The translations under genes and the position numbers were made by a program. Below the pieces are notes generated by a model. The model saw nothing but the letters and a program-made list of their open reading frames with translations, was not told the origin of the DNA and did no database searches. Source: Agrococcus baldri (GTDB taxonomy: Bacteria; Actinomycetota; Actinomycetes; Actinomycetales; Microbacteriaceae). From it: a stretch of DNA of 64,000 nucleotides. Numbering within the stretch: position 1 is the first letter of the stretch; each line of letters starts with the position of its first letter. The DNA is taken from NCBI GenBank assembly GCA_900114805.1, contig FOZN01000003.1, positions 1-64,000 on the forward strand, in the 5' to 3' direction. This document shows, in pieces, positions 1-45,822 of the stretch.

Positions 1-1
1 G

Positions 2-400
2 CTCGTCGCCGGAGGCAAGGCGATCGACGGCCCCGGCTCCTTCTTCGAGCCCACCGTGCTCGACGGCGTCGACGCCGAGATGGCCGTGTCGATCGAGGAG
101 ATCTTCGGCCCGGTCGTCGCCATCCAGCGCTTCAGCAACGAGGAGGACGCCGTCCGCCTCGCCAACGCCACCGAGTACGGCCTGGTCGGCTACGTCTTCA
201 CCGAGGACACCAAGCGCGGCCAGCGCATGATCGAGCTGATCGACACCGGCATGATGGGCCTCAACGTGGGCGTGGTCTCGAACGCGGCCGGCCCCTTCGG
301 CGGCGTGAAGCAGTCGGGCCTGGGCCGCGAGGGCGGCGCCGAGGGCATCCACGAGTACCTCGAGACGAAGTACACGCTGATGCCGAACCCCTTCGCCTGA
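2..400 (+). CDS. gabD: succinate-semialdehyde / aldehyde dehydrogenase, C-terminal part (5' truncated by window)
   Basis: The reading frame is open from base 2 and ends in TGA at 398-400, so this is the last ~132 residues of an NAD(P)-dependent aldehyde dehydrogenase. The sequence EEIFGPVVAI is the classical ALDH Glu-Ile-Phe-Gly-Pro block that contacts the nicotinamide-ribose, and the C-terminal PFGGVKQSGLGREGG run with an EYLETKY tail is typical of GabD-type succinate-semialdehyde dehydrogenases (GABA to succinate). The catalytic Cys lies upstream and outside the window, so substrate choice cannot be confirmed. A twin-hairpin element abuts the stop codon directly. Confidence 0.9.
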   Translation, partial: LVAGGKAIDGPGSFFEPTVLDGVDAEMAVSIEEIFGPVVAIQRFSNEEDAVRLANATEYGLVGYVFTEDTKRGQRMIELIDTGMMGLNVGVVSNAAGPFGGVKQSGLGREGGAEGIHEYLETKYTLMPNPFA

Positions 401-477
401 GCGGTGGAGCTCGAGAGCGACGGCCCTCTCGGGCCGTCGCCGCGACCCCAGCGCAGGGGCCCGTCCCGGGCCCCTGC
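401..477 (-). repeat. twin-hairpin intergenic element, copy 1
   Basis: This copy lies between the convergent gabD and MDR genes. Read on the minus strand it is hairpin A (arms 468-477 and 453-462, 10 bp, loop GGGAC), a linker GCTGGGGTCGCGG, hairpin B (arms 431-439 and 418-426, 9 bp, loop GAGA) and the tail GAGCTCCACCGC, which ends at the gabD stop codon. Two further copies in this window (29089-29162 and 45722-45797) keep loop A, linker and tail but have different, still complementary, stems. It probably terminates transcription from both sides, although neither hairpin is followed by a T-run. Confidence 0.8.
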
Positions 478-29052: not shown

Positions 29053-29088
29053 TGCCCGCCGCGAACGCGGCCGGAGACCGCCGGTGAC

Positions 29089-29162
29089 CCCGGCCCGGGA
29101 CGGGCCGGGCAGCTGGTGCCGCGGCGGAGACCCGAGAGCGTCTCCGCTCCGAGCTCCAGCGC
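29089..29162 (+). repeat. twin-hairpin intergenic element, copy 3
   Basis: Hairpin A (29089-29096 with 29102-29109, loop GGGAC), linker GCTGGTGCCGCGG (11 of 13 identical to the other copies), hairpin B (29124-29131 with 29140-29147, 8-nt loop) and tail GAGCTCCAGCGC, which ends exactly at the stop codon of the minus-strand glycosyltransferase gene. It separates that gene from the sdh promoter. The stem sequences are unlike those of copies 1 and 2, but complementarity is kept. Confidence 0.75.
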
Positions 29163-30314
29163 TCAGGCGCCGACGAGGCCGTCCGCGCCGCGGAGCGAGC
29201 GCCGCGCCGCAGCCTCGTAGTGGCCGAGCAGCTGGTCGATCACCGCTGGCCACGACCGGCCGAGCACGCGGCGGCGGCCGGCCTCACCCATCCGCGACCG
29301 CATGCCTGCATCGGCGACCAGACGCCCGACGGCGGTGCGCAGCGCGGATGCGTCGTCGGGCTCGAAGAGGAACCCGGTCGTGCCGTGGTCCACGAGGTCG
29401 ATGGGGCCGCCGGCGCGGGGCGCGACGACCGGGAGGCCGCCGGCCGCCGCCTCCTGCAGCGTCTGGCCGAAGGTCTCCTCGGCGCCGGTGTGCACGAACA
29501 GATCCATCGCGGCGTAGGCGGCGCGCAGCGCGGTGCCCGAGAGCTGCCCGAGGAACACCGGTGCGAGCGGCGCCAGCTGCCGTCGCGTGTCGTGCATGCC
29601 GGGGCCGTCGCCGACGATCGCGAGCCGGATGCCGGGCAGGCCCGCGAGCGCGTGCAGCCGGTCGAGCCCCTTCTCGGGAGCGATCCTGCCGACGTAGCCG
29701 ACGATCGTCTCCCCGCCTGGAGCGATCCGGCGGCGCAGGTTCGCCGCTGCTGGCCCTCTGCGGTTGTCGGGGTGGAAGCCGTCGAGGTCGACCCCGCGCG
29801 CCCAGCGGTGCACGCGCTTCACGCCCGCTGCTGCGAGATCGTCGAGTGCGGCGCTCGATGGGGCGAGCGTGCGGTCGGCGCTGTTGTGGATCAGCCGGAT
29901 GATCTGCCAGGCGAAGGCTGCGCCGGCGCCGAGCCGGTTGCGGCGGGCGAAGCCGGCGACATCGGTCTGGTAGATCGCGACGCTCGGCAGCCCGATGCGC
30001 GCCGCTTCGGCGATGGCCTGGCCGCCGAGCATGAACGGGCTCGCGGCGTGCAGGATGTCGGGCTGGAACCGCGCCAGCAGGGCTGCGACCTGCGGGCTCG
30101 GCAGGCCGACGGGGAAGCGCCGGTAGGCGAAGGAGGGGACCTCGTGCACGGGCACGCCGCGGTAGTGCACCGGGGCACCGCAGCGGGGCGTGATGACGAC
30201 GGCCTCGCGACCGGTGTCGACCAGATGGTCGAGCACGCGGCAGACGGAGGTGGTCACGCCGTTGACGGTCGGGAGGAAGCTCTCGGTCACGATCGCGACT
30301 CGCTCGATGCTCAC
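29163..30314 (-). CDS. GT4-family glycosyltransferase, probable GDP-mannose-dependent mannosyltransferase
   Basis: A 383-residue GT-B enzyme. The N-terminus IVTESFLPTVNGVTTSV is that of actinobacterial alpha-mannosyltransferases of the MgtA/PimB-like group; the C-terminal donor site shows GRIAPEKGLDRL and HTGAEETFGQTLQEA, an EX7E motif. The divergently transcribed neighbour makes GDP-mannose, supporting a role in mannolipid or mannosylated envelope glycan synthesis. The exact acceptor is unknown. Confidence 0.85.
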   Translation of the reverse strand: MSIERVAIVTESFLPTVNGVTTSVCRVLDHLVDTGREAVVITPRCGAPVHYRGVPVHEVPSFAYRRFPVGLPSPQVAALLARFQPDILHAASPFMLGGQAIAEAARIGLPSVAIYQTDVAGFARRNRLGAGAAFAWQIIRLIHNSADRTLAPSSAALDDLAAAGVKRVHRWARGVDLDGFHPDNRRGPAAANLRRRIAPGGETIVGYVGRIAPEKGLDRLHALAGLPGIRLAIVGDGPGMHDTRRQLAPLAPVFLGQLSGTALRAAYAAMDLFVHTGAEETFGQTLQEAAAGGLPVVAPRAGGPIDLVDHGTTGFLFEPDDASALRTAVGRLVADAGMRSRMGEAGRRRVLGRSWPAVIDQLLGHYEAAARRSLRGADGLVGA

Positions 30315-45161: not shown

Positions 45162-45701
45162 ATGGCTATGGGCGCGACCATCCACACCTTCGACGTGCAG
45201 CTCTCGGACGTCGATCGCGGCGTGTACGAGCAGCTGTCGCTGCGGGTCGCGCAGCACCCGTCGGAGACGACGGCCTTCATGGCCACGCGCCTGCTCGCGC
45301 TGTGCCTCGAGCACGAGGAGGGCATCGCGTTCGGCGAGGGCATCTCCGGTGCGGATGAGCCGGCGGTGCTGGCGCGCGACCTCACCGGCGCGCTGACCGC
45401 GTGGATCGAGGTGGGCGCGCCGGAGGCCGAGCGCGTGCATCGCGGCAGCATGGCCGCCGAGCGCACCGCCGTCTACACGCACCGCGACCCCGAGAAGGTC
45501 GCCGCCCGCTGGTCGGGCAAGCGCATCCACCAGGCCGAGGAGGTGCGGCTGGTCTGGTTCGACGAGGGGTTCATCGACGCCGTCGCCGGCGCGATCGCGC
45601 GGCGGACGACCATGTCGGTCTCGGTGATGGAGCGCGAGCTGTACCTCGAGGTGAACGGCACGAGCCTGTCGTCGACCGTCCACGAGCGGCGCGCCGGCTG
45701 A
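45162..45701 (+). CDS. YaeQ family protein
   Basis: A 179-residue YaeQ-like protein: ATIHTFDVQLSDVDRGVYE, HPSETTAFMATRLLALCLEHE and the FGEGISGADEPAVLARDLTG block are family hallmarks. The fold is related to PD-(D/E)XK nucleases, with candidate acidic residues in GADEP and WIEVGAPEAERVHR. The biochemical role is not established (a link to RfaH suppression was reported for the E. coli protein). The start ATG is chosen from the TACGCT box; twin-hairpin copy 2 follows the gene. Confidence 0.9.
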   Translation: MAMGATIHTFDVQLSDVDRGVYEQLSLRVAQHPSETTAFMATRLLALCLEHEEGIAFGEGISGADEPAVLARDLTGALTAWIEVGAPEAERVHRGSMAAERTAVYTHRDPEKVAARWSGKRIHQAEEVRLVWFDEGFIDAVAGAIARRTTMSVSVMERELYLEVNGTSLSSTVHERRAG

Positions 45702-45721
45702 CGAGGAACGCCTGCTGAATA

Positions 45722-45797
45722 CCGGGACCCGGGACGGGTCCCGGCGCTGGGGTCGCGGCGGAGGGCCGAAAGGCCCTCCGCCTTGGAGCTCCACCGC
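45722..45797 (+). repeat. twin-hairpin intergenic element, copy 2
   Basis: Hairpin A (45722-45730 with 45736-45744, 9 bp, loop GGGAC), linker GCTGGGGTCGCGG identical to copy 1, hairpin B (45757-45767 with 45772-45782, 11 bp, GAAA tetraloop) and tail GAGCTCCACCGC identical to copy 1. It lies between two co-directional genes, about 20 bp after yaeQ and 25 bp before the lpdA-like start. GAAA on a long GC stem is a very stable RNA loop. Confidence 0.8.
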
Positions 45798-45822
45798 GCG
45801 CGGATGCGGGATGATGGAGCGC

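Follow-up and report, generated by a model that had tools for sequence, protein, structure and literature searches.

A patchily spread twin-hairpin repeat of Microbacteriaceae that looks like a REP/MITE-type mobile DNA element

Three twin-hairpin elements in a 64-kb window

The window, i.e., the whole 64,000-nucleotide stretch of Agrococcus baldri DNA that was analyzed, starts at a contig end within an aldehyde dehydrogenase gene (window positions 1-400). This segment has a 99% identical counterpart close to the end of contig 7, and the first 45 bases recur on contig 6 (at its end) and on contig 2; therefore, the assembly break probably falls in a repeated gene.

Three elements built on one plan lie in the window, as a preliminary description had claimed. 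With boundaries refined to run from the start of hairpin A to the end of the tail, they occupy 399-475 (minus strand, copy 1), 29089-29164 (plus strand, copy 2), and 45723-45799 (plus strand, copy 3). In an unfiltered scan with R1, a covariance model made from five copies, they scored 98.3 bits (match 397-482), 83.5 bits (29082-29166), and 100.4 bits (45716-45801), respectively. Such high scores are expected, since all three copies were built into R1; the next best match in the window reached 18.6 bits, on the reverse strand of copy 1.

Copy 1 consists of hairpin A with its GGGAC loop region (455-475, columns 8-28 of alignment A4), the linker GCGCTGGGGTCGC (442-454), whose bases 1-4 and 7-8 pair with the tail in R2, a covariance model made from 93 sequences, hairpin B with a GAGA tetraloop (417-440, columns 43-70 of A4), and the tail (399-411), all on the minus strand. 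The last bases of the tail overlap the TGA (398-400) of the plus-strand aldehyde dehydrogenase gene. An 80-nt fold of this copy has a predicted energy of -60.8 kcal/mol (z = -5.2). The copy is shared with genomes G018 and G020, with compensating changes there: in both orthologues, A30 faces a T87 imposed by the stop codon, and A. baldri itself retains C30.

For the two plus-strand copies, the hairpins were assigned from the A4 columns and the fold. Copy 2 comprises hairpin A (29089-29109), hairpin B (29124-29147), and a tail (29152-29164) overlapping the stop codon TCA (29163-29165) of a minus-strand glycosyltransferase gene; it carries A30/T87 and a T36·G83 wobble. Copy 3 comprises hairpin A (45723-45743), hairpin B with a GAAA tetraloop (45758-45781), and the tail AGCTCCACCGCGC (45787-45799, assigned from the tail motif and A4). 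It lies between a plus-strand reading frame ending at 45701 and a plus-strand pyridine-nucleotide oxidoreductase gene, and its tail ends 11 nt upstream of the ATG (45811) of the latter. The earlier statement that, in copies 1 and 3, the tail lies against the stop codon of the adjacent gene thus holds for copy 1 but not for copy 3; the second case, again with an opposing gene, is copy 2.

The repeat is family-wide and patchily spread

On the 2.9-Mb genome, R1 gave 34 matches at E ≤ 1 and 30 at E ≤ 0.002, on four contigs; the E-values of our models are rough, owing to a short calibration. Besides the three window copies, 27 matches lie at E ≤ 0.002, of which 25 had no part in model building. Therefore, chance resemblance, which the preliminary description had named among the ways in which its proposal would fail, is excluded, and the dozens of matches that it expected are found. 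The 30 copies at E ≤ 0.002 were aligned as A4. Of the individual motifs, only the tail is in excess (53 matches versus 28 expected); the linker, allowing up to three mismatches, gave 141 matches versus 134 expected, and the loop 44 versus 84. Single motifs alone would therefore not reveal the family.

Among 60 related genomes (74 candidates scored per genome), 23 had matches at E ≤ 0.01, namely 20 of the 24 Agrococcus genomes and three other genomes of the family, with 29, 2, and 1 copies; the 23 genomes belonging to other families gave no match. At the same threshold, no copy was found in the Agrococcus genomes G009, G021, and G023, nor in G010, which is 65% complete; other species reach 32 copies. 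Scanned with R2, 123 of 398 Microbacteriaceae genomes from 39 of 85 genera had matches, as did 4 of 396 genomes across the order, all four in Microbacteriaceae. Since few candidates were scored (about 11 per genome in the family and order scans) under strict filters, the numbers of copies are minimum values, and the lack of a match says little.

An exact, core-only pattern scan of named genomes returned at least 118 stretches. The 80 matches listed by name include Agrococcus, Leifsonia, Frigoribacterium, Salinibacterium, Leucobacter, Herbiconiux, Microcella, and other genera, along with many metagenome bins, one of which, with two stretches, is labeled Acidobacteria bacterium. Viral contigs gave no match to the exact core pattern, and phages and plasmids none to copy 3 as query. 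A loose anchor search returned 429 candidates, more than half of them at 4-5 mismatches, and was left out of all counts. Across lineages, the hairpin letters and loops vary, and the linker and tail stay constant. Two tandem arrays were seen. One, in G004, has three copies at about 79-nt spacing (L063 2087-2330); the other, in G022, consists of an identical pair 102 nt apart (L064 1788-1974).

Altogether, this is a family-wide, patchily spread repeat of about 78 bp. The literature and libraries searched, comprising listings and parts of three papers, yielded no description or name for it. A survey of DNA-structure features reportedly names Clavibacter (PMC4060949).

Paired changes extend from the hairpins to a predicted linker-tail stem

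The plan is asymmetric and fixed in order: hairpin A, linker, hairpin B, a short variable stretch, and tail. In the 30 A. baldri copies, the loop of hairpin A is mostly G[GA]GAC within CCCG/CGGG, the linker consensus is G[CA]GCTGG[GC]GTCGCGG, and the loop of hairpin B is mostly GAAA. The tail consensus is AGCTCCA[GC]CGC[GT]C, from which weaker copies deviate.

In an alignment of 93 copies, which was fitted to R1 and thereby favors hairpins A and B, 97.7% of cells are paired, double changes occur at 22 of the 25 pairs, and covariation scores 0.518, compared with at most 0.084 for slid partners. The compensatory change proposed from three copies is therefore strong. That the stems "differ completely" between those three copies was an overstatement, given that the inner CCCG/CGGG of hairpin A is common to all of them.

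The linker, described earlier as conserved and single-stranded, is indeed conserved, but some of its bases pair with the tail. Although models guided the fitting of alignments A4-A9, R1 contains neither 36:83 nor 30:87; hence, these two pairs were not imposed. Bases 36 and 83 are complementary in 92 of 92 copies (C-G 63, G-C 28, U-G 1) and in 116 of 118 stretches of the exact-pattern set, which leaves both bases free and overlaps the 92-copy set at some loci. The pair 30:87 is C-G in 81 copies, A-T in 7, and unpaired in 4. In its simplest nested fit, the predicted linker-tail stem has 4 bp (29-32/85-88), a 2-nt bulge, and 2 bp (35-36/83-84), enclosing a conserved internal loop and then hairpin B. 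Double changes occur in just 3 of its 6 pairs. R1 had instead placed a helix at 33-35/80-82 plus 36:79. Because 36:79 can pair, as G-U, in no more than 27 of 92 copies, R2 adopts 35:84 and 36:83; the pairs 33-35:80-82 show no double change for or against.

At one locus beside uvrB (L054 1501-1585, in G001), linker and tail form a perfect 12-bp repeat that departs from the family consensus; the tail arm coincides with the C-terminal codons of uvrB.

Elements lie preferentially at the 3' ends of genes

Of 154 elements, 19 fall within called genes, 20 lack one neighbor, and 115 have both. The latter comprise 40 at convergent junctions, 37 tandem on the same strand as the genes, 22 tandem on the opposite strand, and 16 at divergent junctions; these counts rest on a home-made codon-usage gene caller, and, being pooled, they may include orthologous copies of a single insertion. 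The excess of convergent over divergent junctions (binomial p = 0.002) agrees with the 3' bias anticipated earlier. It is also seen against the 8-kb loci around the elements (88:98, element junctions included; p = 0.002) and is not significant against the junctions of the window (8 convergent, 7 divergent; Fisher p = 0.22). On the tail side, 35 of 63 opposing genes have their stop within 60 nt. Fourteen of these stops lie at offsets -1/-2, such that the tail ends on the stop codon, and 8 at -15/-16, with tail-side genes admitted only down to offset -16. On the other side, in 25 of 91 cases, a same-strand stop lies 0-9 nt ahead of hairpin A. In some convergent pairs (L018, L022, L023, and L025), the element takes up nearly the whole space between the genes: hairpin A starts 3-13 nt past one stop codon, and the tail reaches 1-2 nt into the other. 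Where a TCA stop imposes T87, A30 is present in 4 of 5 A. baldri copies.

Such an arrangement is what one would look for in a functional RNA at mRNA 3' ends, in one or both directions, i.e., a bidirectional terminator or a protein-binding stability or processing element under selection on the transcript. The intergenic fit, the short distance from stop to hairpin A, and the pairing kept where the stop codon dictates T87 all speak for it. The tests specific to termination speak against it. None of the 30 A. baldri copies has a four-T run after hairpin A or B, as a T-run-type intrinsic terminator would. In addition, hairpins are no scarcer beside elements than at empty orthologous sites (mean z = -0.46, n = 30, versus -0.72, n = 35; p = 0.58, from simple shuffles that do not keep dinucleotides). 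Replacement of native terminators by elements was suggestive at L021, L023, and L031 and negative overall by this test. The tandem terminator put forward in the preliminary description thus finds no backing here, and a terminator role of the repeat is possible.

Base pairing fits DNA and shows no wobble bias

RNA transcribed from the given strand would be expected to favor G·U over A·C, and RNA from the opposite strand the reverse. In the hairpins of 154 distinct copies, 2,728 of 2,849 cells are Watson-Crick, 31 are G·U, 30 are A·C, and 60 are other. With G·U and A·C equal, the element would act as RNA from neither strand, or from both. Therefore, since G·U is no commoner than A·C, the RNA reading has no support of its own from wobble pairs; the predominance of Watson-Crick cells, with both mismatches equally rare, fits pairing in DNA. 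The same equality is also expected if a functional RNA is made from both strands. At Rfam 15 gathering scores, the window yields an FMN riboswitch alone (RF00050, 15093-15234, minus strand, 77.3 bits), and 10 element loci gave no Rfam 15 match at E ≤ 1.

Orthologous copies show the paired changes directly. Over 12 loci, 18 comparisons, and 447 pairs, 23 pairs changed doubly to another Watson-Crick pair, 33 changed singly, 3 changed otherwise, and 388 were unchanged (three matches were left out: L286, identical, and L295 and L318, partial). The pair 36:83 itself switched between orthologues at L005 (versus G011) and L027 (versus G004).

Copies are gained and lost at orthologous sites

All 30 A. 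baldri sites were located in the close relative G018, where 7 hold the whole element, 1 holds part of it, and 22 are without it. Of the 30 copies, 14 (L008, L010, L013, L015, L018, L021, L023, and L028-L034) have, as judged by eye, no counterpart of the same orientation among the 1-4 orthologues available in G018, G004, G011, and G006. Empty sites are readable at L009, L018, and L033, and the same junction holds an element in the opposite orientation for L011 (in G006) and L013 (in G004). Being multi-copy and present or absent at orthologous sites, the repeat shows a trait that characterizes non-autonomous mobile elements. The earlier preference for a selected RNA structure over a DNA repeat is not supported, given these gains and losses, the many changes that affect both arms even in orthologous copies, and the balance of 31 G·U to 30 A·C among the 2,849 cells.

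At L014, element-free orthologous genes end in ...PYR plus 1-3 residues (translated by eye), and those with the element (G000, G018, and G004) read into the tail, ending in AVQR*, AVER*, and AVEL*. In G006, a tail remnant alone is present, and the gene also ends in AVEL*. A tail that pre-existed as the target had been suggested by L020, L024, and L014; for L014, it is rejected, since the endings of the element-free orthologues indicate that the tail arrived with the element.

In G323, five copies interrupt another repeat, of which intact copies lie nearby; the site GGGCTTCGCC-GCG-GCTACTCAACC becomes GGGCTTCGCC-element-GCTACTCAACC. The overlap at these insertion ends is ambiguous because they are GC-rich, and no target-site duplication was clearly recognized. 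The three genes scanned between paired G323 copies encode a sigma factor, an anti-sigma factor, and an antiporter, so a composite enclosing a transposase was not found among them. Recombination of the host repeat may account for the spread of the G323 copies.

Copy 3 is an old insertion, orthologous in five Agrococcus genomes (G000, G006, G011, G014, and G016). It leaves a tail remnant in G022 and is missing from the 220 nt inspected in the other 18 of 24 Agrococcus genomes. Five further tail-bearing remnants are known (L020 and L024 in G018, L014 in G006, and L012 and L009 in G004), and L025 has lost hairpin B in G018; therefore, loss by deletion also occurs.

Two other repeats occur at related places. 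A second palindromic repeat, approximately GGT[TC]TCGATA...hairpin...TACTC[AG]ACC, is present at several Microbacteriaceae loci, including L432-L439, L086, L172, and L448; in G323, L086, and L172, this repeat encloses the twin-hairpin element. A further Agrococcus repeat, approximately GTCTCGTGACGCG...CTCCTCGACCTACG, lies at sites orthologous to L007, L010, L019, L021, and L024 (in G004, G006, G007, and G018), filling junctions that hold the element in A. baldri, as if the two shared insertion spots.

DISCUSSION

A probable mobile repeat, proposed to be recognized as a folded single strand

Our results point, with moderate confidence, to a non-autonomous, REP/MITE-like mobile DNA repeat of Microbacteriaceae that would be recognized as a folded single strand. 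The repeat looks to work like a REP/MITE and is undescribed in the sources searched. A putative enzyme supplied in trans would recognize the folded strand, e.g., on the lagging-strand template, and would cut and join where the linker-tail stem makes up the base. New insertions would lie beside stop codons or existing hairpins, where insertion would be tolerated or preferred, and template switching between arms during replication may speed the pairwise changes. We propose that such recognition is why the linker and tail are kept nearly exact whereas the hairpin sequences change in complementary pairs. Several observations weaken the mobile reading. None of the seven lowest-scoring A. baldri copies (L028-L034) is shared with G018, G004, G011, or G006, an unexpected pattern if they are recent insertions; deletion could account for some of the empty sites, as the six tail remnants indicate; and copy 3 is old, with transposition deduced from sites and no candidate enzyme found among the Y1 class.

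A functional RNA at mRNA 3' ends appears unlikely to us, although it would account for the convergent excess (subject to the Fisher comparison with the window) and for the fit of elements between stop codons. Against it stand the parity of G·U and A·C, the missing T-runs, flanks no poorer in hairpins than empty sites, the lack of Rfam matches at 10 element loci, and the three Agrococcus genomes in which no copy was found.

Alternatively, the repeat could be a relic that spread long ago or through recombination of host repeats, its arms kept perfect mainly by template switching, with no recognition or function. Template switching is described as making and keeping hairpins in the available part of the source (PMC8794818). 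Both arms often change together in orthologues (23 double versus 33 single changes), tandem and partial copies exist, and the perfect linker-tail repeat with an arm of uvrB codons at L054 is of the kind that such a process could leave. We find this reading distinctly unlikely. Template switching should also perfect the linker-tail stem, whose bulge and internal loop stay conserved while 36:83 switches within it, and many sites differ between close species.

A more speculative reading, which we regard as quite improbable, is that the linker acts as a guide pairing with the tail at the insertion end, each copy being fitted to its site and the target pairing being rewritten at insertion, without a REP-type transposase. 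Linker bases 30, 31, and 36 follow tail bases 87, 86, and 83, including changes forced by a stop codon, and the 12-nt linker at L054 is the exact reverse complement of the last codons of the host uvrB. If this reading were true, a miniature element would rewrite its target pairing by target copying or by selection.

A classical REP/BIME or REPIN moved by a RAYT (Y1 HUH transposase) is very improbable: hairpins, extragenic sites downstream of genes, and insertion in another palindromic repeat would suit it, but the Y1 family PF01797 was found in 0 of 24 Agrococcus genomes and, above cut-off, in 0 of 17 high-copy genomes (one sub-threshold match, E = 0.75), and no consistent GT[AG]G tag (GTAG or GTGG) was seen by eye at either hairpin foot in the 30 A. 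baldri copies.

Under the preferred reading of a mobile DNA repeat, Microbacteriaceae would gain a mobile palindromic repeat that is nameless in the libraries searched, and the putative enzyme that recognizes its folded strand would be a findable target. In addition, strong compensatory change occurs here without a G·U signature; therefore, in repeat families, covariation alone is no proof of a functional RNA.

Comparison with known repeats

MIRU, ERIC, and BOX are short intergenic repeats of other lineages with other anatomy, and MIRUs overlap neighboring stop codons. The twin-hairpin repeat is likewise short and intergenic but differs in lineage and anatomy.

The preliminary description had also suggested a REP- or BIME-like repeat. 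The behavior is REP-like, but a REP-type (Y1) transposase was not found; among the 40 genomes searched with PF01797, the one positive belongs to another family. As far as the available parts of the sources go, GTAG REPs, BIMEs, and REPINs are miniature, extragenic, and hairpin-forming as single strands, and compensatory changes on both sides are reported to be common in REPINs (PMC3116915, PMC6006769). The twin-hairpin repeat shares all of these traits and differs in being an asymmetric twin rather than an inverted doublet, and in that no RAYT was found. IS200/IS605 elements are described, in the part of the source available, as having two end hairpins and base interactions between guide and cleavage tetranucleotides (PMC6006769). 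Miniature elements derived from them resemble ours in their two hairpins, and guide pairing is a useful mechanical model for the linker-tail contact; our hairpins, however, are adjacent with no interior, and no IS200/IS605 Y1 gene was found.

The CGTC REPs, according to the available parts of their description (Di Nocera et al. 2013, PMC3733652), are palindromes lying mostly downstream of genes, between convergent or unidirectional ORFs, and within other palindromes in some species, with no associated transposase. The unit of 20-40 bp, or a head-to-head dimer of it, has a CGTC tag at one end and a CCA tail: an unpaired CGTC (or TGTC or CCTC) at one hairpin end, a stem of 8-9 bp whose first two positions are AT, and CCA directly after it. 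In those parts, the five phyla given for CGTC repeats exclude Actinobacteria, and untagged REP-like sequences are mentioned in Mycobacterium tuberculosis (PMC3733652). The twin-hairpin repeat is also palindromic, located 3' of genes and inside other palindromes, with no Y1 gene found; CGTC stands 5' of hairpin B in about two-thirds of copies, and the tail contains CTCCA. It differs in its length of about 78 bp, its two unlike hairpins, and its single fixed order. Neither of two CGTC REP sequence features is present. Base 36 is not a fixed, unpaired C: among 92 copies, 63 have C and 28 have G at this position, which switches with base 83 (C-G, G-C, or one U-G), being complementary to it in all 92. 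Hairpin B has a stem of about 10 bp with a GC/CG base, and CCA follows about 10 nt further on. Therefore, we do not file the repeat with the CGTC REPs. Beside them, it would be a further case of palindromic repeats without a visible transposase, and, in behavior, the CGTC REPs are the closest published kind.
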